IMG/VR virus record: IMGVR_UViG_3300006916_000041
Coordinates: 108,410 to 172,409 of that record
DNA: 64,000 nt
Origin: a virus
Direction: 5' to 3' (one strand)
The translations under genes were made by a program, and so were the position numbers. Position 1 is the stretch's first letter. Each line of letters starts with the position of its first letter. The notes under the pieces are model-generated. The model searched no databases and had not been told where the DNA came from. It saw only the letters and a list, made by a program, of their open reading frames with translations. Below, in pieces: positions 19,491-54,091 of the stretch.

Positions 19491-20669
19491 TTACTCAACA
19501 ACATAATTATATACATCTGGCTCTATCAGGGCCAGATCTACTTTTCTTACTTTTTTGTAATAATCTACGTATTCTTTTAGTAAGTATTTTTTATCTTGAT
19601 TTTTTCCAACAGATGCAATAAGTTCTTCAAAACTTAATCCGTCAAATGTTAACTTTATACTATTTGAAAACTCTTGTGCTTCGATCAAGTACTTTACAAA
19701 ACTTTCATCTAATACACTAATACTAAATGCCATCGGTTCGTATATCTGACTTAGTTGCACGCCTACAGATTTGTTAGGAAAATCCAGTTTCATCTGATGT
19801 ATATATTCTAAATAGTTTTTTAGTTTTGTTATACCCAAACTATTAACAGTTAAATGAAATTGAATTCTATCTACAGAACTTTGGAAAAATTTGTTTAAAT
19901 TGCTTTTAAAATTATTCCAATCGGATCCATATCTGATAGCCTCACTTGTTTGTCCTATAGATTCATTACTAACACTCAATTGAAAATAAAGATTAGTGTG
20001 TTTATATTTTTCTTTCAAACTGTTTATTTCTTGTACATATTTGTCTATCATATTTTTAGGAGTATTGCAATTAGTAAACACATTGAGTAAAAATGATGTT
20101 TTATGATCAGTTGTTAATTTAAAATATTCATCTACTAGGGGTGTCAGATGATTATTCTTAAATAAGTCATTGAAAAACGGCTCACCGCCAAGCAATATAA
20201 GTTCTACTCTATCTACATCTTTTGCTCGTTCAGCTGCCTGTCTTAATGCACGATAGATGTAATCCAACGATTGTTGCAAAGTTGCATTATTAGGCTCAGC
20301 TTCAAGAGAACTAAGATGCTTGTATTCATCTGGTGCATTTTTTGCTTCAGCTTCCCATACACTACTTAAATTACCATAGCAATATCCACAGGCTAAGTTA
20401 CACGTATTATCTAGTGTAATTTCTATTTTAAAAATTTTATTTTTTGTATGAACTTCATTACCTTGATCACGCCAAGACCTAATACCTTGTTGTTCTGCAT
20501 TTTCACACATAAAACATTCTTCTGGAAAATCGCCACTGTCTAAAATATTAACAACTTGCTTGTGCCTGTCTATATTTTCGATAGGCATTTTCATCTTAGC
20601 ACACTTTCCCAATTTCTTTTCGTTTAGTCTTAGATGTAATTCCGAATGAACTCGCTCACAAAATTTCAT
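19491..20669 (-). CDS. radical SAM protein with partial N-terminal cysteine array
   Basis: 392 residues from ATG 20669, which has GAG eight bases before it; an ATG at 20687 is also in frame. EECFMC (C52, C55) precedes the core CNLACGYC (C90, C94, C97), and LILLGGEPFF is the SAM motif. It has the CxxC of the N-terminal twitch group but not an obvious CC pair, only single cysteines near C4 and C23. It overlaps the oxygenase gene upstream. Substrate unknown. Confidence 0.87.
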   Translation of the reverse strand: MKFCERVHSELHLRLNEKKLGKCAKMKMPIENIDRHKQVVNILDSGDFPEECFMCENAEQQGIRSWRDQGNEVHTKNKIFKIEITLDNTCNLACGYCYGNLSSVWEAEAKNAPDEYKHLSSLEAEPNNATLQQSLDYIYRALRQAAERAKDVDRVELILLGGEPFFNDLFKNNHLTPLVDEYFKLTTDHKTSFLLNVFTNCNTPKNMIDKYVQEINSLKEKYKHTNLYFQLSVSNESIGQTSEAIRYGSDWNNFKSNLNKFFQSSVDRIQFHLTVNSLGITKLKNYLEYIHQMKLDFPNKSVGVQLSQIYEPMAFSISVLDESFVKYLIEAQEFSNSIKLTFDGLSFEELIASVGKNQDKKYLLKEYVDYYKKVRKVDLALIEPDVYNYVVE

Positions 20670-21447
20670 TACAAAGCTCGTTTTCATGGTTGTGAATAGT
20701 TATAGTACCAAAGCCGACGATTGCTCTTTTATATTCGTTTGCTTTTTCATAACTAGCAGGTATAAACTTACTGCTTAAAAACCAGCTGCTACTGTGCCAT
20801 CTTGCAGGATCAAACAACATCATTGTACCTAATTTCCATTCATAAGCACTGTGTACTTTAAGTTCTGCAAACTCTGTCAGATATCCACTAGCAATTGGAT
20901 GATACTTTAAAACTTCAGGATCATAATGCCAAAACTTCCAATCGTTGCCTCTATAATGAACAACATCTTCTAAATTTTTCACATGACGCATTTCTCCATG
21001 TTTATAAATTAACTTACTGCCAGTAGTTTCCATTCTATCATAGTTCACAGTGTACGGAACACATCCTTTTGTGTTCCATTCCAGTGGGATAATAATACCT
21101 GCTGCAATTTTAATTGTGTGTGAATCTCTAGTGTCGGGTTCTTGAGGATGTGCGTATGTCTCAGATACATAATCAGTGTGCAACCCTGCTGGTTCTCCAC
21201 TGTGGAAATATTCCCAAGTCCAATCCATGCGGATCCCCATGCGAGAATCTAAAATGTTATTCAACTCTTCTATTCGCGATTTGTCTGGAATTTTAGCAAA
21301 TCTATTCAGATCATTGGCGCCTCTGATTTTGCAATCGCCTGTTTTAATCGCATCTTCTAAAGCTCGCTTGTGCCATTCAATATCTATATCAATTAGATGA
21401 CTGCCTGGTCCTATTTTACTGTCTGGATATACATAAAGTTTTTCCAT
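20656..21447 (-). CDS. 2OG/Fe(II) oxygenase-like protein
   Basis: 263 residues. GLHTDYV gives the HxD pair (H90, D92). The distal His is probably H218 in DPARWHSSSWF. The RMDWTWEYFHSGEPAGLHTDY stretch resembles phage hydroxylase proteins that keep the double-stranded beta-helix. It may hydroxylate a peptide or sugar. Behind AGGATAG. Its end overlaps the radical SAM start, suggesting joint production. Confidence 0.7.
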   Translation of the reverse strand: MEKLYVYPDSKIGPGSHLIDIDIEWHKRALEDAIKTGDCKIRGANDLNRFAKIPDKSRIEELNNILDSRMGIRMDWTWEYFHSGEPAGLHTDYVSETYAHPQEPDTRDSHTIKIAAGIIIPLEWNTKGCVPYTVNYDRMETTGSKLIYKHGEMRHVKNLEDVVHYRGNDWKFWHYDPEVLKYHPIASGYLTEFAELKVHSAYEWKLGTMMLFDPARWHSSSWFLSSKFIPASYEKANEYKRAIVGFGTITIHNHENELCNEIL

Positions 21448-23420: not shown

Positions 23421-23591
23421 ATATTCAATGGTGTTTTTACCTAATACCTGTTTAGGCATTTGACGTTGTTCTAAAAACCATTTAACACTGCTTTTAGTTT
23501 TATCAATTAAATGCTGTTGATTGAGATCTTTATAATTATCTAGTACATATTCTATTGTAGTACAAGAATGTCTGTCGTTATTATTAAGTTT
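23409..23591 (-). pseudogene. out-of-frame C-terminus of the radical SAM gene 23552-24562
   Basis: Sixty sense codons in the -1 frame relative to the radical SAM gene: KLNNNDRHSCTTIEYVLDNY..., then KSSVKWFLEQRQMPKQVL, ending IEYLQL-stop. It has no start of its own and begins straight after a TAA in that frame, overlapping the last codons of the gene above it. Without it a 131-base gap would remain between two convergent genes that otherwise pack tightly. One missing base near 23583-23591 would explain it. It could also be an assembly error or a frameshift site. Confidence 0.7.
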
Positions 23592-24562
23592 TTAAGTGTA
23601 TCATACAATATAGACTCAGGCAATACTTTAAAGTCTAATTCGCTTCCTATAGGTTTTAAATCAAAATTAAAACTATAACTAGGAAACTGTTCGAATACTT
23701 GTATTATATCAGGCAAGTATTCAAAATTAAAAACAGTAACTAAATTATCTACATTTACAAATGAACTTTCGGGTTTGTTGTCTAATAGATATTGTGTATT
23801 TTTTAATGCTTTATCCCAGTTGTGTGGCCATCTAATAAAGTTATAGTTTTCGTTTATACTATCCAGACTAACAGTTACATTACTAGACTTCACTTTGTGT
23901 AAATTATCAATTATTTTTTTATTCATAACAGTAGCGTTAGTAGTAAACGTAAGTCCCATATCGTTACATGCACCGCTGTCAATGACTTTTCCTATTTCAT
24001 TCCAGTTTTCCGCTAGCAATGGCTCTCCACCAATTACTTTGAGTGTACCTACACGTCTATTGGCTATAAAGTCACTCACAACACGAGCTACGTCTACAGG
24101 CTTACCGTTTACTTCAGGACTATGACCCCACTTGCCTGGAAGTATTGTTTTGTCTGTAACGTTGCTTGTAATTTTTTCAATTAAACTACTGACTGTAGGA
24201 CTGCAAAATGGACATGCAAGATTACATGTATTACCTACTACTACATCTAATATATGATAATCCACTGCGTCATTTTTCTTCCAATGATACATAGGATTTA
24301 CACCTCCGCTACGTTCAGCAGTCTCGCACGGAACACACGCAGGATGAAAAGTTGTGTGCGTATTTTGCCAATCTATAAAATGATGCCTATTGTCGTGGTT
24401 TTCTAAATCTTCCCAACTGTTGCATTCTACCCACTGCTGATATTTTCTATCTATATTAAATCCATGCATATGACAACAAGGTCTTGATTTAAAATAAAGT
24501 TTATCGTTCTTTGTGGTAAACTCTACTCGCAGTGCCTTAGAAATCCACTCGCAGTTAACCAT
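23552..24562 (-). CDS. N-terminal-twitch radical SAM protein, C-terminus frameshifted
   Basis: 336 residues from ATG 24562, which has AAGGAT eight bases before it; an ATG at 24589 has none. The N-terminal array is C4, C29-C30, C76-x2-C79. The core is CNLACPFC (C113, C117, C120), and LKVIGGEPLL is the SAM motif. VSLDSINENYNFIRWPHNWDK carries the SxD...RxP.xW signature shared by its paralogues. The frame ends at 23552, about 50 residues short of where the -1 frame continues. It overlaps the upstream radical SAM gene by eight bases. Confidence 0.87.
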   Translation of the reverse strand: MVNCEWISKALRVEFTTKNDKLYFKSRPCCHMHGFNIDRKYQQWVECNSWEDLENHDNRHHFIDWQNTHTTFHPACVPCETAERSGGVNPMYHWKKNDAVDYHILDVVVGNTCNLACPFCSPTVSSLIEKITSNVTDKTILPGKWGHSPEVNGKPVDVARVVSDFIANRRVGTLKVIGGEPLLAENWNEIGKVIDSGACNDMGLTFTTNATVMNKKIIDNLHKVKSSNVTVSLDSINENYNFIRWPHNWDKALKNTQYLLDNKPESSFVNVDNLVTVFNFEYLPDIIQVFEQFPSYSFNFDLKPIGSELDFKVLPESILYDTLKNLIITTDILVLQ

Positions 24563-25898
24563 TAAACAAATCCTTGTATTGAGGAACAATATCTAGAATA
24601 TTTTGATTACGTATTTTGTCTAATTTTACAGTGTAACGAATAAATTCATCTAACCATTCTTCACTGTAATCTTCACTGAGCATAAACTTTTCCACACCAT
24701 CCAATAACTTAACAAAATTATTTTTAATATGGTCATTGTAATCAGTTGTTTGAATCCACTGCCTAAATGTATCATAGTGTGCAACAACCTGTTGTTTTAA
24801 TTGAGGAGGTAATACTTTTACATTGTAATATTTTGGACTGTGGCACATGTGATGTGTCACAATTGGTCTTGGACCAGTAACTGGATTATAACTGTCTAAT
24901 CCACTTTCTTCTAGTTTCCAGCGCATAAATTCAGGAAAATGAAATACGTTATATGGTGTAACTGTAAATGCGTACCATGCTTTTAAATTAACATCAGCTT
25001 GTTCTAAACGTTGCATATTTCTATAAACTGCTTGCCATTTTGCAGGAGTGCGCTGATAATCAAACACAGCACCAAATCCATCGATGCTAACGCCAATACG
25101 CACTTGTTTAAACTGTTCCCACAAATGAATGAGTTTGTCAGGCACCATTGTTAAATTGGTATTATATTCTAACCTAACTTTATTTGCACGACCACTAGCA
25201 ACCAAACGTTCTAAACTTTCTGTGTGTTCATCAATAATAAGAGGCTCTCCGCCTACAATATATATTTTTTTACTGTAAGGAGCATATTTTTCAAAGTTAT
25301 CCCAATACACATTGTTTTGCTGAAACCAATCATATTGATCTGTACTCCAACGACCTTTTGCATTTTTGACAAGTTGTATTTTCTCATGTGTATCCTTGTA
25401 GTGTGTTCTGTCATGTAATTTTACATAATCATCATACCAAGTATGACTGTCAGTAGGGCCGCACATTCTACATTTGAGATTGCAAAAGTTTCCATATCTG
25501 ATGTCAATAAATTCTATATCTTGTTTGCTTGTGTCTATTGTACCGTCTTGGTCTGTGAAACTTTGTACTTTTTCTAAACTCAAATCTCCAAACCATTTAC
25601 CCCAGTCTTCGTTTTCATATTCACGTCGACTGCGTATACCATTTAGTTCTTCTTGTCTACAGCGTTCACATTCTGGATGCCATTCGCCTTTCATCATTGA
25701 CTGACGAACTTGTTTTAGTAAAGGAGCATTACGAGCTTTGTTCCAATCATCTTTGCCAGCATTGTATGTTTCACCTGTTTCTTTTTTCATAATGCCACGC
25801 TGAGGACTATAGCTGTTTGTGTTACAACAGATACGCAAATCCCCATTGTTTCTCAGATTAATACTGTTCCAAGGTAGTGGACAAAATGTACAACTCAT
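24555..25898 (-). CDS. N-terminal-twitch radical SAM protein
   Basis: 447 residues. The N-terminal array is CTFC (C3, C6), CC (C24, C25) and CERC (C77, C80). The core CNLKCRMC is C139, C143, C146, with YIVGGEPLIIDEH. GVSIDGFGAVFDYQRTPAKW is the group signature. NCBI lists proteins of this layout as twitch domain-containing radical SAM proteins, without a known reaction. Coupled by ATGA to the B12-type radical SAM gene upstream. Confidence 0.9.
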   Translation of the reverse strand: MSCTFCPLPWNSINLRNNGDLRICCNTNSYSPQRGIMKKETGETYNAGKDDWNKARNAPLLKQVRQSMMKGEWHPECERCRQEELNGIRSRREYENEDWGKWFGDLSLEKVQSFTDQDGTIDTSKQDIEFIDIRYGNFCNLKCRMCGPTDSHTWYDDYVKLHDRTHYKDTHEKIQLVKNAKGRWSTDQYDWFQQNNVYWDNFEKYAPYSKKIYIVGGEPLIIDEHTESLERLVASGRANKVRLEYNTNLTMVPDKLIHLWEQFKQVRIGVSIDGFGAVFDYQRTPAKWQAVYRNMQRLEQADVNLKAWYAFTVTPYNVFHFPEFMRWKLEESGLDSYNPVTGPRPIVTHHMCHSPKYYNVKVLPPQLKQQVVAHYDTFRQWIQTTDYNDHIKNNFVKLLDGVEKFMLSEDYSEEWLDEFIRYTVKLDKIRNQNILDIVPQYKDLFNG

Positions 25899-27364
25899 TG
25901 GTTTTTCCTTGTATTAATATCTTCTTCAGCTCTTTTGACAGAAATAAGATCATCTCTTTTAGGTCTTGCATAATATTGTTCGTTTAAATCATCTACAAGT
26001 TTTCTAACTTCGTATAATCTTCGTTCTCTTACTTCCAATGAATTATCTTTCCATGTCCAGTCTATATGATCATTATAATGTGTGATGCCGTCTTTAAATT
26101 TTTTGTAAGCCACCATACCCGATCCTAAATGCATTATATTACCAAAACTAAATGATATGTACTCTGCATGTCCTCTTTCAAATAGCTTGCGTACAGTGTC
26201 TAATGTGTGCTGATGATGTTGTTCTGTTTCAGTTACATATCCTACAATCATTAAAAAGGTTTGATGAATTTCTAAATCTTTCAGTGTATCGAAACAAAAC
26301 CACATATCCTCGTCAGTAAATTTTTTACCCATTTCCCATCTAATATCTTCACAAAAACTTTCAACACCTATTTCTAGTCTTCCACATCCGCTAGCTTTCA
26401 TTAACACATAATCATCGTAAGTCATTTGGTGTTGACTTCTCACAATCCATTGACTACTCCACTCAATCTTCTCTTCATTTTTTTCATTATAATCTTTTAA
26501 AATATTGCATAAACTTCTAAAATGTTTCATGCTACCATTTATTAAACTGTCAGTAAAAAGAAACATATTTCTGTTATATTTTTCTGCACAATATATTATT
26601 TCATTGGCAATACTTTCTCCTGATCTAAAAATATACTTGGGCCAAATTTCATATACATTACAAAAATCACAGCGTTTAACGCATCCTCTACTACCAGTTA
26701 CATATATAGGTTTATAATCCACCGGAGGATTGTATATATCCCATTTAATATCGCTGTAATCTGGTAACGGAATACTTTCTAAATTTTCAAAAGGAACTTT
26801 GTATTTTTTTGTTTCAGATGTTTTGTATGTGTTTATTAGTTCAATGATAGCTTTTTCTCCATCACCTTCTACATAAAAGTCAACGAACTCATCATATTGT
26901 CCATAGAGTCTGATGATCCTCTCCATGTATCTTGGCAAGATACCAGTGCCTCCCCATACAATTATTATATCAGGATCGGCTTGTTTTATTAGTTTACTTA
27001 GATATATCGAACTACAATGACTGTATTCAGATAACAAACTTAATCCTACAAATTTTGGTTTTAATTCCAAAATTTCTTTAACTTTTTGTTTCCAAAATTC
27101 CTCGGATATTGGTACAAGTGTTTCAACAAACTTGGGATATCTATCTAAGAAAAATGCACTATCATCTTTCTCATAATAATGATACCCGAGCTCGCCTTCT
27201 AAGTTGTTTAGCCAGTTAAAAAACTCTATGTTTAAATCAATTATCAATGAACTAATATTGTGTTCATTCAAAACTGTTTTTAATAGTGCAGGTCCAACAC
27301 TGGGTGCTTCTACACTCATTTTAGGCATTGATAAAAAGACAAAATCAATCTCCGAGTTGCTCAT
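25895..27364 (-). CDS. cobalamin-binding-domain radical SAM protein
   Basis: 489 residues from ATG 27364. Residues 1 to about 180 resemble the B12-binding Rossmann domain (SVGPALLKTVLNEHNISSLIIDLN, FVGLSLLSEYSHC, IIVWGGTGILP). The core CVKRCDFC (C228, C232, C235) follows, then FTDSLINGS and GRLEIGVESF, typical of the MiaB/BchE-like class. Members methylate unactivated carbon or rearrange rings using methylcobalamin. The canonical DxHxxG of some B12 proteins is absent, as in several members of this class. It is the only member of this type among the 17. Confidence 0.88.
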   Translation of the reverse strand: MSNSEIDFVFLSMPKMSVEAPSVGPALLKTVLNEHNISSLIIDLNIEFFNWLNNLEGELGYHYYEKDDSAFFLDRYPKFVETLVPISEEFWKQKVKEILELKPKFVGLSLLSEYSHCSSIYLSKLIKQADPDIIIVWGGTGILPRYMERIIRLYGQYDEFVDFYVEGDGEKAIIELINTYKTSETKKYKVPFENLESIPLPDYSDIKWDIYNPPVDYKPIYVTGSRGCVKRCDFCNVYEIWPKYIFRSGESIANEIIYCAEKYNRNMFLFTDSLINGSMKHFRSLCNILKDYNEKNEEKIEWSSQWIVRSQHQMTYDDYVLMKASGCGRLEIGVESFCEDIRWEMGKKFTDEDMWFCFDTLKDLEIHQTFLMIVGYVTETEQHHQHTLDTVRKLFERGHAEYISFSFGNIMHLGSGMVAYKKFKDGITHYNDHIDWTWKDNSLEVRERRLYEVRKLVDDLNEQYYARPKRDDLISVKRAEEDINTRKNQ

Positions 27365-28754
27365 CAAAAATGTCCTTCATTTCTGGAAATGTTGCACTGA
27401 AACTATTGTTACGCTGGCGATCACACAGTGCTAAAAACTCTTGCATTTCTGGTAAACGTACACTCCAGTCTTCGCTTTCCATAAAACTTAGCATGCCTTC
27501 TAAACGTTTGATTCCATATTCAGCATTTCTCCAGGTATCGTAATCTACTTTGCCTTTGTGCCAACTAGGTATACTTAATTCCCAATTGTCTTCCCACCAT
27601 GGATAAAACTGTTCGTATTTTTCTCTACACTTTGCTTTAAACCAGTCTGGCAATACTTTTACATTTAAATGTGCTGGATGATAAACAAAGTGATAGTTAA
27701 TACCACCTGCACCAAATGGCCACATATTAATCTTGTTAAACTTTTGTTCTAATTTCCATTTAATGAAATCAGGCAAGTAATAAATGTTTAAGGCTTGTAC
27801 TGCACAAGCAACTGTGATTTCTACATTGTTACTAGTTTCTTTATCTAGTATGTGGAACACTTCTTCAGTGCGCTTCCATTCACTTGGATAACGTATATAA
27901 TCATTCATAGCATGTATGCTGTCTACACTATAGTGAAAACGTACAAGTTTGAATTCTCGCCATAGATCAAATAAATCCTCTCTCCATTCAACTCCATTTG
28001 AGTTGTAACGTAGTTCGAGATTTTTTGCGTGACCTTGACGTATACATTCTTCAAGTATTTTATAATGCTCCTCAATAATTAAACTTTCTCCTCCAGCAAA
28101 ATAAATTTGCTGCATGTTTGGAATTTGTTCATAAAACTGTTGCCAAAACGTGGGATTTTGTTTGTGCCAATTATAACTACTCCCGTTAATACTTCCTTTA
28201 TCACGCCACATTGTATTTTCTTTTAGCGTTTCATTTTGTATTTGAGGATGTATAGCACTCCAGTCTTTAACCCAACCTGAACTATCGTGTGGGCTACACA
28301 TCACACAAGCTAACTGACACTTTGTTCCAAAACGTAAATCAATATAAGTTAATTCAGGCGGAACTTCTCCGTCATCTGTGGTATTTTCTAATAAACGGTC
28401 AACATCAACACGCCGACTCCAATATCTTGTTTCCCACATACGTTTACTGTTGTGTCCAGCAGCTTCTTCTTTAAAACATTTAGCACAACTAGGAGGGATC
28501 TCACCATTGATCATCTGCTTGCGCACATTGCGCATGTATTTGCTGTTCCATGCTGTTTGAAAATCTGTTACATTTAAATTGTTGGGCTTGCCTTCATCGT
28601 CTTTGAGTACGCCAACCATACCTCCGTGTTGTTTATCATTTGTAGGACCCACACTACTAGCATTAGCCGTACAACATACTCTCATACTTCCGTCGGGTCG
28701 GGTGCTTAAATGTACCCATGGTAAGATACAAAATGTGTCACTTGGTTTTGTCAT
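27345..28754 (-). CDS. N-terminal-twitch radical SAM protein with GGES
   Basis: 469 residues. FCILPWVHLSTRPDG carries C9, then CC (C27, C28) and CAKC (C90, C93). The core is CQLACVMC (C146, C150, C153). The SAM motif reads GGES instead of GGEP. HYSVDSIHAMNDYIRYPSEW is the signature. Overlaps the B12-type gene by 20 bases and is coupled to the SPASM-type gene upstream, so at least five radical SAM proteins come from one message. Confidence 0.9.
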   Translation of the reverse strand: MTKPSDTFCILPWVHLSTRPDGSMRVCCTANASSVGPTNDKQHGGMVGVLKDDEGKPNNLNVTDFQTAWNSKYMRNVRKQMINGEIPPSCAKCFKEEAAGHNSKRMWETRYWSRRVDVDRLLENTTDDGEVPPELTYIDLRFGTKCQLACVMCSPHDSSGWVKDWSAIHPQIQNETLKENTMWRDKGSINGSSYNWHKQNPTFWQQFYEQIPNMQQIYFAGGESLIIEEHYKILEECIRQGHAKNLELRYNSNGVEWREDLFDLWREFKLVRFHYSVDSIHAMNDYIRYPSEWKRTEEVFHILDKETSNNVEITVACAVQALNIYYLPDFIKWKLEQKFNKINMWPFGAGGINYHFVYHPAHLNVKVLPDWFKAKCREKYEQFYPWWEDNWELSIPSWHKGKVDYDTWRNAEYGIKRLEGMLSFMESEDWSVRLPEMQEFLALCDRQRNNSFSATFPEMKDIFDEQLGD

Positions 28755-29833
28755 TTAAATTGCTCTGCAAATGGATCAAACTCAGTTCCGCACTTCATAG
28801 CACACACCCCTAGCTTTCCTTGAGCTACACTGTCGAATGTCCAACTATCACTAATACTACTTAGTAGTGATCCTTGCATCACTTTTTTGATACCATGCTC
28901 TATCACATTGATTGCTTGCTTGCTGCCAGCACGATCAATATGATCCCATATTTGTTCTACACGATAATCCTTGTGCCACCATTTGTACATGCGTCCGCCA
29001 GTCCAACAACAAGGCATTAGCAAGCCTTCTGCTGTAATAAAGATTTCTTTTTTCTCTACAGCTTTGCAGTTTATACTACACTTGTCATAATAATCTCGCA
29101 TACTGCCGTATGTTTTTTCAATTTCTTTTTGTTTTAACAATGCTAGGTTTTGATTTTCAACTTTAGTTGGTTTAGCAATTGCTTGTGTTTGTTCACCTTT
29201 TCGATTACGTGCTTGATGCACATCCTTTTGTTCACTTTTAGCAGTAAAGAAACGGCCTGACTTTTTAAGCTGGAACCGTTCCACACCCCAAGACTCTGCT
29301 AGTTCACGTGCTTCGTCGACTTGGTGTTCGTTGTGTCCAAACACAATGTAGTCCCAACGTGCTCTACCGCCAGCATCTATAAATGCTCGCATGTTGCGTT
29401 CTACGTTAGCCCAGACAACATTCTGCCTGTATAAATGATTAGTGTCACTAAGACCATCCACGCTGAAAATAACAGTGCCCATTCTACCAAAGACTTGGGC
29501 AAGTTCACGCCACCATGTTTCATCTTTTGCTCCTGCATTTGTATTCATACTCAACCACATTGTGGGGTTATGTTCTCTGAAGTATTTAAATATTTCCAAC
29601 GTGTCGTGTGCAACAATAGGATCACCCAAGTTACCACACATGTACATAGTCTCAAGTTGTTGAATAAAATCTGGTTCGAATATACGTTTGCAATCTTCTA
29701 AACTTAGTTCGGCATTAGTAATGTGACGATTGTCTGCTCCGCCATTTTCATTACGATCACACATCGGACATGCTGCTTGACAACGTTGTGTAATTTCTAA
29801 ATGAACCATTTTTATTTCTTCGTATGTATACAC
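28751..29833 (-). CDS. radical SAM/SPASM protein, CPMCDRN type
   Basis: 360 residues starting at GTG 29833, which shares one base with the upstream stop (TAGTG). Alignment with paralogues at 42109 and 43251 supports this start. CQAACPMC is C18, C22, C25. The SAM motif reads CGNLGDP instead of GGEP. C-terminal CSINCKAVEKKEIFI, LLMPCCWTG and CAMKC make a SPASM-like auxiliary site. IFSVDGLSDTNHLYRQNVVW is a group signature. Confidence 0.9.
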   Translation of the reverse strand: MYTYEEIKMVHLEITQRCQAACPMCDRNENGGADNRHITNAELSLEDCKRIFEPDFIQQLETMYMCGNLGDPIVAHDTLEIFKYFREHNPTMWLSMNTNAGAKDETWWRELAQVFGRMGTVIFSVDGLSDTNHLYRQNVVWANVERNMRAFIDAGGRARWDYIVFGHNEHQVDEARELAESWGVERFQLKKSGRFFTAKSEQKDVHQARNRKGEQTQAIAKPTKVENQNLALLKQKEIEKTYGSMRDYYDKCSINCKAVEKKEIFITAEGLLMPCCWTGGRMYKWWHKDYRVEQIWDHIDRAGSKQAINVIEHGIKKVMQGSLLSSISDSWTFDSVAQGKLGVCAMKCGTEFDPFAEQFK

Positions 29834-30212: not shown

Positions 30213-30437
30213 TTATTTATCGTATATTAGTTTAACATCTTTTCCTGGCCCATATCGACTAGGCAAATCACCATACTCACCAACATACCATTCAATAACT
30301 GCTTTATACCATAAATGACTGTCGTGATATGCAAGTTTATTAAACTTGTAGATGTTATTATTAGTTGCTTGCATTGTACTTAATGCACGAGCACTTTCTT
30401 TTTGCAATTCTCTTACTGATAAATCATTTATATCCAA
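30213..30437 (-). CDS. small hypothetical protein
   Basis: 74 residues: MDINDLSVRELQKESARALS, a helical start, then HLWYKAVIEWYVGEYGDLP. It overlaps the end of the tandem-repeat gene by 14 bases. Its last codons overlap a GATAAATA late-promoter candidate. No family recognised. Confidence 0.6.
   Translation of the reverse strand: MDINDLSVRELQKESARALSTMQATNNNIYKFNKLAYHDSHLWYKAVIEWYVGEYGDLPSRYGPGKDVKLIYDK
30214..30221 (-). promoter_or_regulatory. candidate late promoter (GATAAATA)
   Basis: Minus-strand GATAAATA, 18 bases before ATG 30195, overlapping the stop of the preceding gene. It would start the message running into the radical SAM genes at 29.8-23.4 kb. Confidence 0.45.
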
Positions 30438-42112: not shown

Positions 42113-43254
42113 ATATATAAAATATCCCTAGGGCTTTTATTCTTTAAACACATCGATGTACATGTAGTAAGTCTTCCGTTACAATGTGAAAGTTCCCATA
42201 ATTTTTCTATCTTAGATAAAAAATCTGTTTCTAATATTTGTTTTACAGTATAATTTTTAGCATTTGTTTTTTCTAAATCAATGTTTTTTTCTAACCATTT
42301 ATTATATTGTACATTATTTAAATCAAGTGATACATTCTGGCTTCCTATTCCTAAAAAACAACAAGGATGAACATTTCCGTTACTATCAATATAAATTTCT
42401 TTATTGTTTTTTGTCATGCATGATATTTCTGTGCCATCTAAATCAACAAAACGTTCGCCGTGTTCTTTTAATACCAATTCAGTAAACTTATTATTATTAT
42501 CCAGTCTCCACTCATATGATTCCATTGGCAGTGTATCTACATGTTTTGTATTTTTTTCGTTTGTAAAAATATCATTATTAAAATTTTTGTCGGACGATTG
42601 TTCAATGAAATAATCTATATCTCCTTTTTTGTCTAAGACTCTCATTGCTGAAAAACCCTGTAATGGAGTGTCAAACCCAAAAGGTCTTTTAAATCGTATG
42701 GCAGAAAAACCCATTTTTTCAGAAAGTTCTCTTGCTTCGTCAATTTGATGTTGGTTGTGTTTAAAAATTAAAAATTCCCAAACTGCATTGCCGCCGCCAT
42801 CAATGAAAGACTGCATGTTTTCTTTTAATCTTTCCCAAATTACACCACGCCTGTATATATGATTTGTATCTTCTAATCCATCTACACTAAAGGTAACTGA
42901 TAATTTTGGATTTATTGATCCAAGTCGCTTCCACCATTCAGGCGATCTTATTCCTCCGTTTGTATGAATACTAATTAATAGATTTGGATTTTGCATTTTT
43001 AAATATTCTAATATATCTGGTATTTCTTTGCAAAAAATTGGATCTCCATAATTTCCGCACATCAAAATTTTATCAAGTTGTTTACTTGTTTCTTCATTAA
43101 ATATTTTAACAAAATCATCATAACTCATGGTTCTTGTTATTAATCCAGGCACTGTATATCCACCGTCGACATTTCTTGGACATACAGGACATGCTGCATT
43201 ACATGCACTGCTTAATTCTATGTGTATTGTTTTTAACTCTTCAAATTTAATCAT
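42109..43254 (-). CDS. radical SAM/SPASM protein, CPVCPRN type (copy 1)
   Basis: 381 residues. CNAACPVC is C18, C22, C25. The SAM motif reads CGNYGDP. C-terminal ISCMTKNNKEIYIDS, VHPCCFLG and CTSMC form a SPASM-like site. Paralogue of the next gene with stretches of identical DNA (35 identical bases at 42746-42780 and 43858-43892), which indicates a fairly recent tandem duplication. Also related to 28751-29833. Confidence 0.9.
   Translation of the reverse strand: MIKFEELKTIHIELSSACNAACPVCPRNVDGGYTVPGLITRTMSYDDFVKIFNEETSKQLDKILMCGNYGDPIFCKEIPDILEYLKMQNPNLLISIHTNGGIRSPEWWKRLGSINPKLSVTFSVDGLEDTNHIYRRGVIWERLKENMQSFIDGGGNAVWEFLIFKHNQHQIDEARELSEKMGFSAIRFKRPFGFDTPLQGFSAMRVLDKKGDIDYFIEQSSDKNFNNDIFTNEKNTKHVDTLPMESYEWRLDNNNKFTELVLKEHGERFVDLDGTEISCMTKNNKEIYIDSNGNVHPCCFLGIGSQNVSLDLNNVQYNKWLEKNIDLEKTNAKNYTVKQILETDFLSKIEKLWELSHCNGRLTTCTSMCLKNKSPRDILYI
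42746..42780 (-). repeat. 35-bp block identical to 43858-43892
   Basis: The same 35 bases occur in both tandem SPASM genes, coding the WEFLIFKHNQHQ segment. Part of wider DNA similarity between the copies (for example TTCTTGGACATACAGGACAT near both gene starts). Confidence 0.85.
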
Positions 43255-44360
43255 GATTCTATACGAAGACCTTTTCTTAAATTATTTTTCATTGAGCACA
43301 TTGTAGCACATGTATAAAATTTACTATCCGTGTCCCATGTTTGTTTTATCTTTTTAAAATAATCGGATTCTATAATTTGTTTCAATGAATATTTTTTTGC
43401 ATTTATATTATCAATTCCGATATTTTCTTGTAGCCATTTCACAAATTGCAGTTCCTCTGGATCGTGTAGTACGTCAGACTGACCGCCAAAACCAAACCAG
43501 CAACACGGAAATACATTATATAATGCATCTATATATATTTCTTTTTGTTTTATAGCATGACAGTTTATTTTATTGTCCCAGGACCTACTATTTATATGTG
43601 CATTTTTAGATTTTATTTTTGTAGTAATATATTTGTTATATTCACAATCATGTTTTACTAAATCTATTTTCTCACTGTCAAACGGCTTATTTACAAAATC
43701 ATCATCACCTGGCATTACGAAATATTCAAATTTTCCGTCATTGTCAATGACATTTATTGCAGGAACTGAAGTAAGTGGATTATTAAATCCATATGGTCGC
43801 TTGGGAATAAATTCAACAAATCCAAGTTCATCGGCATACTCTTTAGCTCGGTCAGTCTGATGTTGGTTGTGTTTAAAAATTAAAAATTCCCAACGAGCTA
43901 TGCCGCCAGCATTTATATATGCAGCAACATTAGTCATAAGTTTATTCCAATTAACATTACGTCTATATATGTGGTTAGTATCTTCTAAACCATCGATACT
44001 AAAAATAACATTTGTGTCATATGAAGCTAGTTGCTGCCACCAGTCTGGATTTCGTAAACCTCCATTTGTATGAATTATGATGTTTACTGTTTTATTATGA
44101 GTTCTTATGTATTCTAAAATTTTATTAAGGTCCTGGCACGACATAGGATCACCGTATCTACCAACCAATAAAATTTGAGTTAGCTTACTTATAAATTCTG
44201 GGTCAAAAATATCTAAGAAATCATCAAAAGTAAATGTATTGTGTTTAATATACGGCTGGTCATATCCACCCATTACATTTCTTGGACATACAGGACATGC
44301 TGCATTGCACAGTGTACTTAATTCTACATGTATTTTTTTGATTTCATTATAATTAAACAT
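43251..44360 (-). CDS. radical SAM/SPASM protein, CPVCPRN type (copy 2)
   Basis: 369 residues. CNAACPVC at C18, C22, C25; the SAM motif reads GRYGDP. IFSIDGLEDTNHIYRRNVNW, INCHAIKQKEIYIDA, VFPCCWFG and CATMCS match copy 1 segment by segment. Coupled by ATGA to copy 1 and overlapping the unknown gene upstream by eight bases. Confidence 0.9.
   Translation of the reverse strand: MFNYNEIKKIHVELSTLCNAACPVCPRNVMGGYDQPYIKHNTFTFDDFLDIFDPEFISKLTQILLVGRYGDPMSCQDLNKILEYIRTHNKTVNIIIHTNGGLRNPDWWQQLASYDTNVIFSIDGLEDTNHIYRRNVNWNKLMTNVAAYINAGGIARWEFLIFKHNQHQTDRAKEYADELGFVEFIPKRPYGFNNPLTSVPAINVIDNDGKFEYFVMPGDDDFVNKPFDSEKIDLVKHDCEYNKYITTKIKSKNAHINSRSWDNKINCHAIKQKEIYIDALYNVFPCCWFGFGGQSDVLHDPEELQFVKWLQENIGIDNINAKKYSLKQIIESDYFKKIKQTWDTDSKFYTCATMCSMKNNLRKGLRIES
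43858..43892 (-). repeat. 35-bp block identical to 42746-42780
   Basis: Second member of the pair, in copy 2, 1112 bases from the first, which is the length of one gene unit. Confidence 0.85.
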
Positions 44361-45471: not shown

Positions 45472-46683
45472 TTATTTCTCTGTTATTTCTGACAATGGAT
45501 AAAAAGAAAAATAGTCAATTTTTCTTCTTTGTGACATTGCTTTCCAATATGAAAAAAATTGCGAATCAGGAACACATGTACCAGTACGTTGATACATATT
45601 ATCTAAATGCTGATGTACTTGTTTTACTTTAAATTTGTTTACACCATCTACTGTATTTATGATATCATTAAATACTTGTTTAATTTTTTTAATATCTACT
45701 AATTTAGTAGGACAATAAGACAAATCTGTAAATCCGTTCTGTACATTGTTCAATGAGAAATTCCAGGTTTTTGTGTAGTCATCTTTTCCAAGTATATCAA
45801 AACACCATAATAAAAACTCATCAAAATTAGAGAAGCTAAACAAACTAAATGTTGTTGTTATGTATAGATGGTCTACCTGAGATTTTACTGCACGTAAATT
45901 ATTTTCAAACGTGTGGAAATCTAGATGATATCTTACAGCTTCAGCACGCTCGTGAATATCTTCGATACTAACACTGAGATTCCATTCAAATATATCTTTA
46001 GTAGCATTTATTGTCAACAATAATTTTTTTAACAGTGCTGGTTTACAATTTAAATTTGTTGTTATCATCAATACCGGCTTGTTTTCGAAGTGTCCGCATA
46101 TTTGACTCAAATATGAGATAATGTCATATGTGTCTGTGATCAGAAGAGGCTCTCCTCCTAGTAAATTAAATATTAGTTTTCTATCTTTATCAAAACCTCC
46201 AATATAGTTTTTCAAATTTTCTAATATTTGTTGTTTCCAGTTTTGGTCAATCGTATTCTTTACAGGTTGTCCCAATTCTTTTGCCCACATTGTACTACTC
46301 CAAGGCCCACAATATATACATGCAAGATCACAGCTATTTCCGATGTCTAAATCAATGTAAGAAGTTCGAGATATTGTTTTTAATTGTGGTTTTACATTTG
46401 TAATATATTGATCATCCCATATATTCCATACTTTTTTAATATTATCTGGCGCTGTGTCAATACACCACTGGCAGTTAGGAGGAAGTTGATTGTCATCAAG
46501 GCTTATTTTTCTGTTTAAAATATTTTGTTCGTGAAAATCAAACACACGTTCTTTTAGTGTGTCGATTTCCTCAAATGATATAGGTTGAGCAGTTTGCTTA
46601 CAACAATGCTGAAAAGTTTGTTTTTGGAAATTAATGTTTAAGTCAGTCCACATTTTGCTGCACACATTGTACTTAGAATCCAT
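45472..46683 (-). CDS. N-terminal-twitch radical SAM protein
   Basis: 403 residues. N-terminal array C8, CC (C27, C28), CQWC (C71, C74). Core CDLACIYC is C118, C122, C125, with FNLLGGEPLLI. NLSVSIEDIHERAEAVRYHLDF is the signature region. It starts two bases after the previous gene's stop, so it is in one operon with the genes to 54103. Confidence 0.9.
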   Translation of the reverse strand: MDSKYNVCSKMWTDLNINFQKQTFQHCCKQTAQPISFEEIDTLKERVFDFHEQNILNRKISLDDNQLPPNCQWCIDTAPDNIKKVWNIWDDQYITNVKPQLKTISRTSYIDLDIGNSCDLACIYCGPWSSTMWAKELGQPVKNTIDQNWKQQILENLKNYIGGFDKDRKLIFNLLGGEPLLITDTYDIISYLSQICGHFENKPVLMITTNLNCKPALLKKLLLTINATKDIFEWNLSVSIEDIHERAEAVRYHLDFHTFENNLRAVKSQVDHLYITTTFSLFSFSNFDEFLLWCFDILGKDDYTKTWNFSLNNVQNGFTDLSYCPTKLVDIKKIKQVFNDIINTVDGVNKFKVKQVHQHLDNMYQRTGTCVPDSQFFSYWKAMSQRRKIDYFSFYPLSEITEK

Positions 46684-46685
46684 CT

Positions 46686-47879
46686 CTATTCTTCTCCAGA
46701 TATAAATTTTTTAACAGAACTATAAGGCATAATGTCTGCATAACTAACACCTCTGAACTTATCTCTAGATGTAGTGTTTTTAATAAATATTTCTTTCCAC
46801 ATTTTATCTACCGGTCTGTTAAGTTCTTGTTGAAAATAACGATAATCAATATTTTTATCTACAGTTGTAAAATCATCTCGCCAACCTTGCTTAATTTCTT
46901 CAAGAATTTCTGTCTTAGCTTCATTTGGTAACAATCCTGCACTTAATTCATCTTCGTTTACCATATTAAACCATACATCAATATCATGCTGTGTATAAAA
47001 CTCTAAACTTTTAATAATATTTTGTATACTGTATGCACTTACTGTATACGAAATACCTATCCAGGCAATTTTATTATCAAGTTGAAACTGTTTAGCCTTT
47101 AAAAGATTTTCTTTAAACACATCCCACTTGGCTGGAAATCTATTGTACTCAAAAGTTTCTTCAATACCATCTGCACTATACAAAATACTTACACGCTTAA
47201 ACTTACTAAAATATTCATTGAAATATTCATCGTTGTGTATACTTCCATTTGTTGCATAATTTAAACTCATATCTGCACTTTTGCCAGAATCAATCAAATG
47301 TTGCAAAAATTCCCATTGTTTTTTAATAAGCCAAGGTTCACCGCCATAAAAGTCAAAATGTTTTGTTTTATGTGTTTTTTCAATAATGTGTTTCCAAACA
47401 TCTTCGTTTTTATACCAATGATACAAGTGATGTATTTTATCAAATTTTTCGTTCAAATGCGGCAGTATTTGTGCATTCTCAGATGCTATTAAACTACTAC
47501 TTGTAGTATTACAAATAACACATTTTTGATTGCAAAGATTACTTAATTTTAAGTCTACACTAATTAAGTCAGTATTATCAACAGTTGACGTAATAAAACT
47601 TTTATACTGCTGATTTTTTCTTATGCGTAAACTAAGAACGTTTACATTTTCTTCTTTCCAACATTTATTACACCCGCTTGGGTTATCACCTGCTAGTAAT
47701 TGTTGTCTCAAGATTTGCATTTCCTGACTGTTCATATAATCGTCGATACTGTCGGTGCTAATATTAAATTCTTGTCCTTTGGAATTTTTGAAGCCGCCAG
47801 AATAAACACAACAAGGGCGCATTCGACCTTCGTTATTAATTTCTAAACCAATCCAAGGCATTATACAATAATTTTTCAT
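46686..47879 (-). CDS. N-terminal-twitch radical SAM protein
   Basis: 397 residues. YCIMPWIGLEINNEGRMRPCC: C5 and CC (C23, C24); CNKC (C70, C73); core CNQKCVIC (C116, C120, C123); FDFYGGEPWLI. SILYSADGIEETFEYNRFPAKW carries the group signature. Coupled by ATGA to the next radical SAM gene upstream. Confidence 0.91.
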   Translation of the reverse strand: MKNYCIMPWIGLEINNEGRMRPCCVYSGGFKNSKGQEFNISTDSIDDYMNSQEMQILRQQLLAGDNPSGCNKCWKEENVNVLSLRIRKNQQYKSFITSTVDNTDLISVDLKLSNLCNQKCVICNTTSSSLIASENAQILPHLNEKFDKIHHLYHWYKNEDVWKHIIEKTHKTKHFDFYGGEPWLIKKQWEFLQHLIDSGKSADMSLNYATNGSIHNDEYFNEYFSKFKRVSILYSADGIEETFEYNRFPAKWDVFKENLLKAKQFQLDNKIAWIGISYTVSAYSIQNIIKSLEFYTQHDIDVWFNMVNEDELSAGLLPNEAKTEILEEIKQGWRDDFTTVDKNIDYRYFQQELNRPVDKMWKEIFIKNTTSRDKFRGVSYADIMPYSSVKKFISGEE

Positions 47880-49189
47880 AATTTATTTACACCAAAATAT
47901 TTTTTAAGCACATCTTCGATATGTGGCAATGATTTTTTCCAGTCGAGATTTCCAGTAATGTCGTACGTGTTTAGTCTTTTCAACAGACTTTTCATGTTGT
48001 TGTCAATTTTCTGCGAATCAATATCTAAACTCATTTCAATTCTATTAAGAACTTCACTGGGTCGATTAATATATGCATCGTCTATATCAGGATTATTTAA
48101 GATCCATGCAATATAATCTTGATATACTTCTATTAGATGTTGTTTATACTCTGTTGGCATAAAATACAAATTCATGAATTCAGGTGTCATAATATAGTTC
48201 ATTGAACTATTTGGATATTCGAGCCAGTTGTTTTCGATACAATATTTGTCAAACTCAGGAAACTTTTCAACATTAAGAATTCCAATTGTAGGGCTAGGTG
48301 TAATTGTAACATGCGGTGCTTTTTCTTTAATTTCGTTAAAATTATTTTTAAAATCTTCCCATACTAAGTTTGTTCTTATGTATTCAACGGTATCTTCCAT
48401 ACCATCAATACTTGCTCCTATATATACATTTGGAAAATTTTTCCAAACATCAACTAAATTCCTTCCTTTATACTTTAGTGTAGTTAAATTAGTGTTGTAT
48501 TTGATACTACAATTAATATTTCCTATCTCTATCAAGCGATCCAGTATCTTTAAATGTTCAGGATATAATACAGGCTCACCGCCAGCAAAATATATTTCCT
48601 TAACGTAAGGAAGATATTCTTCTATTTTATCAAAACAATCACTGTGTATAAATTTCTGTGGTGTTCGTGTAAATCCATAAACCTTTATTTCCTCTTCGTA
48701 CCAACTACTGCTCAGACCATGTCCACACATGCGACATTTTAAATTACAGATATTGCCAAACCTGATATCTAAATAGCGTATTTTTACATCTTCGATACTA
48801 CCATCATCGTTTGTAGAATTGATGTATTCTTCCCATTCAGATTCATCGATGAAAAAGTCATTGAACCATTTTCTCATCGAACTATCTTTAATTTCGATAC
48901 TAGTTTTTTCTCTGTCGTAACATCTATCACAACCTCTGTCTTTTTCGCCAGTCATCATTTTCAGTCGAAGTTCTTTAAAACTATTGTTGTTTAAAATATC
49001 AGTTACTGATTCCGATTCATCTATATTTCCAAATCTTTTTGGATCTTCTCTATAGACTCCATAATCCCAAATACAACATGGTTGCACATTTCCGTCGGGG
49101 CGAGAATGTAGATGTATCCACGGAGCAGCACAAAAGCTACCATTATTTTTTAATTGTTTTATTTTTTCATTTTTTATATTATGTTTCAT
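47876..49189 (-). CDS. N-terminal-twitch radical SAM protein
   Basis: 437 residues. FCAAPWIHLHSRPDGNVQPCC: C20, CC (C38, C39); CDRC (C87, C90); core CNLKCRMC (C148, C152, C155); YFAGGEPVLYPE. IGASIDGMEDTVEYIRTNLVW is the signature. Its core motif is identical to that of the gene at 24555, the closest cross-block match. Overlaps the sulfotransferase gene by 11 bases. Confidence 0.91.
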   Translation of the reverse strand: MKHNIKNEKIKQLKNNGSFCAAPWIHLHSRPDGNVQPCCIWDYGVYREDPKRFGNIDESESVTDILNNNSFKELRLKMMTGEKDRGCDRCYDREKTSIEIKDSSMRKWFNDFFIDESEWEEYINSTNDDGSIEDVKIRYLDIRFGNICNLKCRMCGHGLSSSWYEEEIKVYGFTRTPQKFIHSDCFDKIEEYLPYVKEIYFAGGEPVLYPEHLKILDRLIEIGNINCSIKYNTNLTTLKYKGRNLVDVWKNFPNVYIGASIDGMEDTVEYIRTNLVWEDFKNNFNEIKEKAPHVTITPSPTIGILNVEKFPEFDKYCIENNWLEYPNSSMNYIMTPEFMNLYFMPTEYKQHLIEVYQDYIAWILNNPDIDDAYINRPSEVLNRIEMSLDIDSQKIDNNMKSLLKRLNTYDITGNLDWKKSLPHIEDVLKKYFGVNKL

Positions 49190-49964
49190 TTATTTTCATA
49201 ATTTCATTACTTTTATTTAAGATATATCCATCATATTTACATAAATTTTTTCTGACCTCTGATTTTATTAAATCTACAACTTCATCATAATTTTTCACAG
49301 TATTTTTTTTATCTTTGCTAGGAACAATATTAATCATATTGTCATCAATTTCAAAATTACTAGATATTTTCATATCTTCAAGTATTTGGGGTCCACTTTT
49401 TCCTAAAATAGAATCTTCATAATATAAGATTTCATGACATGGAATGTTAAATTTATTTTCTATTAACATAATATGATCTCGTACTGAAATTTCCGTTATA
49501 AAGCGAATCGTTTTATCATCTATTATATATATGTTTTCATCTTGCGATTTTGCTTTTTCTGTATACCATAAACCTTGAATTTTTGAAATACAATGACTCA
49601 AAATATTCTCAACGATATTCTTTCTTACAAGAAATATATTATACATATCCTCTGTTTTTTGTAAATACGTGTCTATCAACGTTTTATCGATAAGTTCTAA
49701 ATCATATATATTTGGAATTTGTGTTTTTATAATACATTTTTCGGCAAACATCAAATCATCTAATCTATTGTAGATATATTTACTCATTTTTTCAAAATCC
49801 GAAAAATCATCATTGAATGCATACCTAAGATTTAAAAATTCTGTAGGAAATTTATTAAACGGAGGCGGTCTTCCTATATCCGTGCCACCAATTAACACAT
49901 GATACAGATAACTAGACCCAGAACGCGGTTGTGAAATTATTTGTATTTTTTTCTGATTTATCAT
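49179..49964 (-). CDS. sulfotransferase
   Basis: 261 residues. ISQPRSGSSYLYHVL (10-24) is the 5'-phosphosulfate loop, and MYNIFLVRKNIVENILSHCIS the 3'-phosphate-binding strand and helix with its Arg and Ser. This is the best sulfotransferase match in the window. It lies between two radical SAM genes with overlaps on both sides, so sulfation probably belongs to the same pathway. PAPS could come from the host or from the CysC-like kinase at 6311. Confidence 0.85.
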   Translation of the reverse strand: MINQKKIQIISQPRSGSSYLYHVLIGGTDIGRPPPFNKFPTEFLNLRYAFNDDFSDFEKMSKYIYNRLDDLMFAEKCIIKTQIPNIYDLELIDKTLIDTYLQKTEDMYNIFLVRKNIVENILSHCISKIQGLWYTEKAKSQDENIYIIDDKTIRFITEISVRDHIMLIENKFNIPCHEILYYEDSILGKSGPQILEDMKISSNFEIDDNMINIVPSKDKKNTVKNYDEVVDLIKSEVRKNLCKYDGYILNKSNEIMKINET

Positions 49965-51067
49965 AACATACTTTCTATTTTTGAAATATATTCTTTATAG
50001 TCTAGTCTTTTAAAGTTTTTTGTAAATTCTAATCTCGTTTTTAATTTTTTGAACTCCATTGGGTCAAAAATTGACATTTCTATATTTTTTCTCACATGGT
50101 CATCAAATATACCAAAATAGTTGTTATCTAAAATTTTTTGCTTAATATCATTATTAATAACATTAAAGGAGTAGTATTTTGGATATTTTACAAATGTTAT
50201 TACTGGAGTATAAAATTCATTTTTTATTAACCACTCTGATAGTTCATTTAAATAAAAAAGGTTTAATACACTAATAGTTACGTGAATGTTAATATTTAAA
50301 TTCTTGTTTGTTTTTTTTAAATCTATCAAATCTGATATATTTTTATTAACTGTTTTCCATTTTGCGTTTGTTCTTATATATTCAAATGGAAGTCCAATCG
50401 CATCTATACTCAACCCGAAAGTTAACTTATTGACAGTATCTAAGTTATTTTTATAGTAATATTTTTTTACAGATAAACTACCATTGGTCGAATAGTAAAT
50501 TTCACAATTTTTATTTTCTTTCAAAACTTTTTTTAATATATCTTGATGTAAATTATCAAATAATGGTTCACCCCCCAGAAATTCTACTAGTTTAACATGG
50601 GACATATCTTCCTTTTTGATTTCTTCGAAGTTGCTATATTTTTTTACTACGGAAGATATTTTTTCGGTCTGATATAATTCGCTGTATTTTTCTTCTTCTC
50701 TTATTAATTGAAAAGTTGCTTCTGGAACACATGTCCTACAAGCGAGATTACAAATATTACCAGTTGATAATGATAGATATAATAAAGAATTATATTCGGA
50801 ATCTTTTTCATATTGTTTTCTATTTTGTTTAATTCTAAGACTTTCAATATTTTTCTTTTCTACATCCCAACATTTTTGACATTGGATTGGACGGTTTCCA
50901 TTGTTCAATTGAACCCTTATTGTTTTATGTTCATCAGAATTTAATAGTCGATTAAATGATTTATATTTCTGACCTAATTTCATATGACAACAGCTACTAC
51001 CATTTTCTTGATGAAATCCATGAAATGCAAGCATACAATATGTATCAGAATCCCTATTAGGTTTCAT
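49961..51067 (-). CDS. N-terminal-twitch radical SAM protein
   Basis: 368 residues, the shortest of its group. YCMLAFHGFHQENGSSCCHMK: C11, CC (C26, C27); CQKC (C63, C66); core CNLACRTC (C106, C110, C113); VEFLGGEPLFD. GLSIDAIGLPFEYIRTNAKW is the signature. Very AT-rich even for this genome. Overlaps the next gene upstream by 11 bases. Confidence 0.9.
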   Translation of the reverse strand: MKPNRDSDTYCMLAFHGFHQENGSSCCHMKLGQKYKSFNRLLNSDEHKTIRVQLNNGNRPIQCQKCWDVEKKNIESLRIKQNRKQYEKDSEYNSLLYLSLSTGNICNLACRTCVPEATFQLIREEEKYSELYQTEKISSVVKKYSNFEEIKKEDMSHVKLVEFLGGEPLFDNLHQDILKKVLKENKNCEIYYSTNGSLSVKKYYYKNNLDTVNKLTFGLSIDAIGLPFEYIRTNAKWKTVNKNISDLIDLKKTNKNLNINIHVTISVLNLFYLNELSEWLIKNEFYTPVITFVKYPKYYSFNVINNDIKQKILDNNYFGIFDDHVRKNIEMSIFDPMEFKKLKTRLEFTKNFKRLDYKEYISKIESML

Positions 51068-52529: not shown

Positions 52530-54091
52530 TCAAAACTCTCTTTTGCTAACTTACAAACTTCAAAGAAATTTTTCATTTCAGGATATACTTTAAGAAAATC
52601 TGTTCCTCTGCGTTTATCCATTTCATTGATGTAATCATAAAATTTAGCTCTACCTTCTCTAATATCGTCATGCCCTTCACGCTCAGGTCTCGTTTTTTGA
52701 TTATAATAAGCACGGTGCATAACAATACGTTTTAATTTTTCAACTTCTACATTTAAAAAACCTATTTCTGTATTCCATACACTGCTAGGATTATTATCAC
52801 TCATGTATTTAATTGTCGGTAACAAATAGTTCGTAAGTAAATCTTCAGAGCAAAAATGAACATCCATCCACTCAGGCCATCTCAAATACGGAATATCTAG
52901 ACTAACTGTAATAGTGTGCGATCGATTACGTTCTCTATGAGCTATAATTTGATCCATTGTTCCGTCAGAGTTATCATATCCTGTAGCACTTAAAATAACA
53001 GTTTCACTAGTGTCATTTGGAGTATATTTTCTTTTAAGATTAAGAACCCATTCTAGCATCGGTTTAAAACTAGTAATACTTAATATATTAAATGCAGACA
53101 TTATAGAAAGTCTGATATTATCCATTTCAGCGATTTGTTCTGCACGAATCTTTAAAAGATTAAAGTTTAAACCAGTTCTAGCATATTCTGCACGTTCGCC
53201 CCAGCCTTCTAAACTAGTATAAACAGTAATTTTTTTAACAACTTCCTTATCTCTCATTTCAGTTAATAGTAAAACAAACTCGTTCCATAACTTGTCAGGA
53301 ACACTAAGATTACTGTTAATAGAAAATTCCATTTCGGTATTTGGATTTTCTATCAAGTATTTCATAGTTTTAAAAGTTTCTTTACTCATAAGCGGTTCGC
53401 CGCCTGTAATACGATAATGTTTTAAATGCTTACTAGCTTCAGGAAACCATTTCCAAAATGCATCAATGTATGGATTAAACTCTCTATTTTTAAATGTTAA
53501 TTTTTCGAGATCATGATGTGCATGTACTATTTCTTCTTCTGTACTATCTTTTAAAAGTTCAATCGGACCATGTTGTTTTAATTCTTCTACCCATTTACTA
53601 CTAAATTCAGGACCACAGTATGTGCATTTCATATTACAAACATTGCTAAAACTTACTTCTAAATAGCTTGGATATATATCTTCATCGCCAGTTAAACTAA
53701 CAATATCGTCATGATCTTCGAAAGCCCAATACTCTAAACTTTTAATAAATCTATCACTTTTACCGCCGTCATCTTCTACTCGCCAGCAGTAATCGCACTC
53801 TGCCGGACGTTCGTCACTAAGCATTTGTTTTCTAGCTTGTTTAAGATGATTTGTATTAAAAAGTGCATGAGGATTTTGTTGAATTTCATCTAAAGGAATT
53901 TTATGAGGAGCTGGATGATGACAAGCATGTGTCATACCTGTGCCTAGATGTAATGTAACTTGTTTAAATTTAGCTAAACACATCCCACATCCTGTATTGT
54001 CGAGCAGAGATTTCATATTCCAAATATTATTATCGTTGTGTTCTAGTACACCATTGGAAAATCTATTCCAATTTAAATCGTCTTTTTTCAT
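52526..54091 (-). CDS. N-terminal-twitch radical SAM protein, CHHP subtype (2)
   Basis: 521 residues from ATG 54091, behind GAGGAA; a TTG four codons earlier is rejected. CGMC (C35, C38), CHHPAPHKI (C57, H58, H59), CDYC (C99, C102), core CNMKCTYC (C152, C156, C159), RITGGEPLMSKE. TSLEGWGERAEYARTGLNF is the signature. It is the largest radical SAM protein here and the first in the block after the glycosyltransferase-like gene. Coupled by ATGA to its CHHP partner. Confidence 0.9.
   Translation of the reverse strand: MKKDDLNWNRFSNGVLEHNDNNIWNMKSLLDNTGCGMCLAKFKQVTLHLGTGMTHACHHPAPHKIPLDEIQQNPHALFNTNHLKQARKQMLSDERPAECDYCWRVEDDGGKSDRFIKSLEYWAFEDHDDIVSLTGDEDIYPSYLEVSFSNVCNMKCTYCGPEFSSKWVEELKQHGPIELLKDSTEEEIVHAHHDLEKLTFKNREFNPYIDAFWKWFPEASKHLKHYRITGGEPLMSKETFKTMKYLIENPNTEMEFSINSNLSVPDKLWNEFVLLLTEMRDKEVVKKITVYTSLEGWGERAEYARTGLNFNLLKIRAEQIAEMDNIRLSIMSAFNILSITSFKPMLEWVLNLKRKYTPNDTSETVILSATGYDNSDGTMDQIIAHRERNRSHTITVSLDIPYLRWPEWMDVHFCSEDLLTNYLLPTIKYMSDNNPSSVWNTEIGFLNVEVEKLKRIVMHRAYYNQKTRPEREGHDDIREGRAKFYDYINEMDKRRGTDFLKVYPEMKNFFEVCKLAKESFE

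Follow-up and report, generated by a model that had tools for sequence, protein, structure and literature searches.

Ligands of an auxiliary cluster precede the core of the radical SAM enzyme in LipA and in the MiaB-type methylthiotransferases, whose motifs and folds differ and are not those of a twitch domain. In the classical SPASM/twitch enzymes, the auxiliary domain is C-terminal to the core (PMC9012708). The twitch topology, as seen in SkfB, consists of a hairpin, a short helix, a long helix and a CxxC pair, and in the twitch of BtrN four cysteines bind a [4Fe–4S] cluster (PMC6231123). An N-terminal placement has been modeled as the NCBIfam family NF033640 ("N_Twi_rSAM," twitch domain-containing radical SAM protein; curated cut-off 170 bits), and a phrase search of open-access full texts, outside which most subscription journals lie, found no paper on an N-terminal twitch or SPASM domain in radical SAM enzymes. 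Radical SAM genes are also known from phages: pelagimyophages carry radical SAM cassettes inside the host-recognition region (PMC7029224), and for the 183 kb T4-like marine virus TARA_ERS488813_N000010, 12 genes for radical SAM enzymes are reported together with an A-type Fe–S carrier (PMC5332604).

We analyzed a stretch of 64,000 nucleotides (hereafter the window), bases 108410–172409 of a 172,409-base IMG/VR virus record. The host of this large virus is bacterial. The window contains 17 radical SAM ORFs, all running on the minus strand, and this island adjoins virion protein genes; each of the proteins has the CxxxCxxC motif and a match to PF04055 scoring over or near the cut-off. TARA_ERS488813_N000010 resembles our record in size, in its many radical SAM genes and in the A-type carrier, but has 12 radical SAM genes to the 17 ORFs found here; the likeness to T4-like viruses is one of gene content and size only.

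A cysteine array before the radical SAM core

Eleven of the 17 ORFs have a four-cysteine array ahead of the core (Table 1), the number counted in an earlier note made from the sequence, and its residue numbers for 27345 and 47876 proved exact. The remaining six have cysteines after the core, and inspection of their pre-core segments revealed no array. The first spacing is exactly x18 in nine of the eleven proteins, the exceptions being 23552 (x25) and 49961 (x15). The note had also described ten full arrays and a partial one in 19491; the count is right, but the partial member is 39414. The array of 19491 (C10-x18-C29-x28-C58-x2-C61) is complete in its four cysteines and lacks the CC doublet alone, and 39414 (C13-x18-C32-x39-C72-x4-C77) has no CxxC. 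Because a chromosomal homologue (L164:13376–14551) has an altered array with the identical spacings C-x18-C-x39-C-x4-C, the 39414 array appears to be a variant and not a product of decay, which suggests selection. The pattern exceeds chance expectation: shuffled pre-core segments reproduced it at P = 0.002–0.06 per protein, values that are not independent among eleven paralogues.

Scanning the viral contigs located 145 loci, and the ORFs there together with those of the window yielded 348 full-length homologues for alignment. The alignment showed the four array cysteines to be as invariant as those of the SAM cluster: the first cysteine, the CxxC pair and the three SAM-cluster cysteines are present in all 348 homologues (with one ambiguous residue), and at the CC position one cysteine is always kept and the other can be S or A. 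MAFFT, run separately on 110 sequences that included 19491 and 23552, recovered the same invariant positions. A search of the 348 homologues for a C-terminal cysteine column found none with more than 24% cysteine after the core. A scan of the genome contigs with 27345 matched one contig and a scan with 24555 matched none.

Table 1. The radical SAM (rSAM) ORFs of the island, with positions in the window and predicted types
ORF	Strand	Predicted type	Cysteines	Array position	Basis and remarks
14771..15721	-	rSAM, post-core cysteines	256, 273, 298, 303, 305		Contrast case
16423..17544	-	rSAM, post-core cysteines			Third cassette member
19491..20687	-	Diverged N-twitch rSAM	C10/C29/C58-C61	20505-20660	No CC doublet; NF033640 119 bits, below cut-off
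23552..24589	-	Diverged N-twitch rSAM	C13/C38-39/C85-C88	24326-24553	NF033640 128 bits, below cut-off
24555..25898	-	N-twitch rSAM	C6/C24-25/C77-C80	25659-25883	NF033640 373 bits
25895..27367	-	B12-type rSAM, no array			Contrast case; sub-cut-off Pfam match to a B12-binding domain
27345..28754	-	N-twitch rSAM	C9/C27-28/C90-C93	28476-28730	CxxxCxxC core 28296-28319; NF033640 419 bits; Pfam SPASM residues 9-93; 72-90% identity, nearly all of 65 viral loci
28751..29833	-	Conventional rSAM, array post-core	252, 256, 275-276, 344, 348		Partner of 27345
39414..40505	-	Most diverged N-twitch rSAM	C13/C31-32/C72-x4-C77 + C70	40275-40469	Pfam SPASM residues 13-70, E 6.7e-8; NF033640 60 bits; spacing as in chromosomal L164:13376-14551
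42109..43254	-	Conventional rSAM	C-terminal C-x18-CC...CxxxC		
43251..44360	-	Conventional rSAM	C-terminal C-x18-CC...CxxxC		
45472..46683	-	Diverged N-twitch rSAM	C8/C27-28/C71-C74	46462-46662	NF033640 131 bits, below cut-off, spans 3-392 of 398
46686..47879	-	N-twitch rSAM	C5/C23-24/C70-C73	47661-47867	NF033640 284 bits; Pfam SPASM residues 5-74
47876..49189	-	N-twitch rSAM	C20/C38-39/C87-C90	48920-49132	NF033640 362 bits; Pfam SPASM residues 20-91
49961..51067	-	N-twitch rSAM	C11/C26-27/C63-C66	50870-51037	NF033640 210 bits
51057..52529	-	N-twitch rSAM, CHH type	C21/C40/C82-C85	52275-52469	NF033640 287 bits
52526..54103	-	N-twitch rSAM, CHH type	C42/C61/C103-C106	53786-53980	NF033640 307 bits

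Homology of the N-terminal domain to the BtrN twitch

The array is invariant and homologous to the C-terminal twitch of BtrN. A profile built from 53 N-terminal domains and compared with the PDB matched BtrN residues 163–244 (E 2.4e-4), with the four array cysteines in register with C169, C187, C232 and C235 (residue numbers derived by counting along the HMMER alignment). Among the radical SAM entries of the PDB, the profile finds BtrN only, over its C-terminal twitch, and the remaining matches were zinc fingers with E of at least 0.07; a PDB search with the whole 47876 sequence gave no match. Pfam SPASM (PF13186) matched the N termini of 27345, 46686, 47876 and 39414. An AlphaFold2 model of the 47876 N-terminal domain alone (pLDDT 90.6) shows a hairpin, a short helix, a long helix and a final cysteine pair (CxxC), and Foldseek ranks BtrN 4m7s first among its structural matches (probability 0.99, TMq 0.55), with a weak E-value (0.098). 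The nearest solved folds to the full-length model (pLDDT 92.8, pTM 0.91) are the SPASM/twitch enzymes CteB, anSME, BlsE, SkfB and MoaA. The permuted twitch of the earlier note is thus supported by NF033640, by Pfam SPASM, by the BtrN profile match and by the predicted fold. We regard it as very probable that the eleven proteins are radical SAM enzymes in which a twitch, the auxiliary-cluster half of the SPASM domain, stands before the TIM-barrel core.

With BtrN, a twitch radical SAM dehydrogenase (4M7S/4M7T), the proteins would thus share both the register of the cysteines and the predicted succession of hairpin, short helix, longer helix and cysteine pair, but the BtrN twitch follows the core whereas theirs precedes it, and the first ligand spacing is x17 in BtrN against x18 in most of them. 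In none of the eleven does the array have the classical C-terminal placement. The SPASM-domain enzymes anSME, CteB, PqqE and SuiB have in common with them the first half of the SPASM motif, in line with the PF13186 matches; in contrast to these enzymes, the proteins of the island lack a C-terminal array and the seven-cysteine motif of the two-cluster SPASM domains (CX9-15GX4C-gap-CX2CX5CX3C-gap-C), having four invariant cysteines before the core, sufficient for one auxiliary cluster.

Both placements of the array occur within this one island. In 28751, 42109 and 43251 a C-x18-CC...CxxxC pattern follows the core, its columns being 99–100% cysteine among 106 homologues, and when the profile of this C-terminal domain was compared with that of the N-terminal one, the hairpin aligned (E 4.7e-5, probability 68%). 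The best NCBIfam matches of 25895, the enzyme of B12 type, were to the families of the PhpK P-methyltransferase and of the RiPP C-methyltransferases, neither of which reached its cut-off.

Family spread and the three-enzyme cassette

Seven proteins of the window pass the NF033640 cut-off and are matched end to end (210–419 bits); 19491, 23552, 45472 and 39414 score below it (60–131 bits) and are diverged relatives, not members. The domain order of the family is that of the window proteins, from which 39414 differs by C-x4-C in place of CxxC. The novelty that the earlier note implied for this architecture does not hold, as a curated family model exists and the order is widespread in bacteria. 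A phage-specific order was likewise rejected, because 55 of 192 cellular genomes, all from one phylum, that of an Oligoflexia metagenome-assembled genome, have NF033640 matches over the cut-off, often in several adjacent genes. The N-terminal twitch architecture is thus already known as a protein family and is common in bacteria; its best PDB match, BtrN, is not a member of that family. On the chromosomal stretch L164, the genes at 13376 and 2644 both carry N-terminal arrays. One cellular open frame, 1004 aa long (G077:C28:4820–7672), has two NF033640 matches and is possibly a tandem enzyme of this kind.

In a relabeled and resampled tree of the core sequences, a branch supported at 88/91 separates the N-twitch group from the rest, which is compatible with the N-terminal order having arisen once. 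An earlier core tree, with poorer labels and one unrelated radical SAM protein, was not clean and needed five label changes, so that one origin is a candidate reading.

The three enzymes 16423, 28751 and 27345 form a cassette common to many virus contigs and bacterial chromosomes. At the 65 viral loci with 27345 homologues, these are usually accompanied by homologues of 28751, 30213, 30424 and 31595, and in most by one of 16423. Homologues of 16423 (59–67% identity) were found in 12 of the 192 chromosomes, and in 11 of these the gene lies about 4 kb or less from a top-scoring 27345-like N_Twi gene. The chromosomal stretches L165, L166 and L168 have homologues of all three enzymes, and L165 and L166 additionally have homologues of 30424 and of the 31595/54093 type. 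Genes for a nucleotidyltransferase, a GDP-mannose dehydratase-like protein, a DegT aminotransferase and a GT2 glycosyltransferase are found a few kb from the cassette in L168, and GT2 and FAD oxidoreductase genes near that in L166; of the six chromosomal stretches, only some have such sugar genes close to the cassette.

The phage island also encodes a carbamoyltransferase, a nucleotidyltransferase and further tailoring genes. A tailoring pathway of mixed character is suggested by two nitroreductase-family proteins (window 15748–16398 and 18842–19486), together with a protein at 22743 that resembles Asp/Asn hydroxylases and a fragment of AMP-binding type at 11482. Within the island, a 74-aa ORF (30213–30437) without a Pfam match is mostly 60–80% conserved and lies close to the 28751 homologue in 57 of the 65 viral loci, and a large membrane protein (34401), by eye similar to TctA of the tripartite tricarboxylate transporters, lies with a neighbor at 33329–35864. 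At 58220–59410, adjoining the virion genes, there is a predicted protein with repeated GYGYGYGY tracts near its C terminus.

Proposed chemistry and alternative readings

As the homologous BtrN twitch gives four cysteines to a [4Fe–4S] cluster, we infer that the first cysteine, one cysteine from the CC/CHH position and both cysteines of CxxC would together fully ligate one [4Fe–4S] cluster; the auxiliary cluster of the earlier note is in this way supported by homology, with the cluster type assigned by analogy. By the chemistry of BtrN and SuiB (PMC9012708), the 5'-deoxyadenosyl radical would take a hydrogen from the substrate and leave a substrate radical, whose electron the fully ligated auxiliary cluster would accept. 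The outcome, in line with the proposal for BtrN, would be a net oxidation by two electrons. Unlike that of MoaA, the auxiliary cluster would not bind substrate, since with four cysteine ligands every iron is occupied.

Zinc sites often contain CxxC pairs, and the CxxC end of the domain has weak zinc-finger matches in the PDB (E 0.07 and 0.58), as a purely structural, zinc-ribbon-like array would lead one to expect. The sole significant solved match, however, is the BtrN twitch, an Fe–S-binding domain whose four cysteines align in register, and the four Pfam SPASM matches and the fold of the domain model likewise oppose zinc, which we consider very improbable. Nor do we find it probable that the most diverged members, 19491, 23552, 39414 and 45472, retain the array as an inherited remnant without a cluster: all four score below the NF033640 cut-off and 39414 has its last cysteine pair altered, but each has kept the four cysteines, and the recurrence of the exact 39414 spacing in a chromosomal homologue suggests that it is selected.

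As substrates we tentatively propose sugars, or intermediates of a surface glycan that are sugar-linked: the cassette is shared with bacterial chromosomes, where in some cases sugar-nucleotide and glycosyltransferase genes are nearby, and the closest solved domain belongs to an aminocyclitol dehydrogenase. The main rival to this surface-glycan role is the maturation of peptides or proteins, RiPP-like or acting on phage structural proteins, which would leave the role of the auxiliary cluster unchanged. For most of the SPASM/twitch enzymes that PMC9012708 lists, the target is a peptide, the folds nearest to the 47876 model include CteB and SkfB, the 74-aa ORF is conserved near 28751, and the island adjoins virion protein genes. 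Against this stand the sugar genes near some chromosomal cassettes, a nonexhaustive search that found no RRE-like domain or precursor peptide, and the chromosomal cassettes themselves, in which the 74-aa ORF was not recognized among ORFs listed only from 90 aa. We see maturation as possible, if rather unlikely. With sugars as the substrates, the phage would remodel surface glycans, those of the host or its own. That the cassette, one N-terminal-twitch enzyme and two with post-core cysteines, performs an undescribed surface-glycan modification, captured by phages and expanded to alter host or virion surfaces, is a speculative extension that we hold to be doubtful.

Whatever the substrate, the N-terminal twitch makes it possible to ask cleanly whether an auxiliary cluster functions with its domain on the opposite end of the core, a question for which the highly conserved 27345 family (72–90% identity across many virus contigs) is a sensible first target. 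The supply of Fe–S clusters also counts for the auxiliary-cluster explanation: the same virus record encodes an A-type carrier (PF01521; G000:C1:37852–38142), outside the window. A search of this record for NifU_N/IscU gave no match; a related virus record of 383 kb has one.
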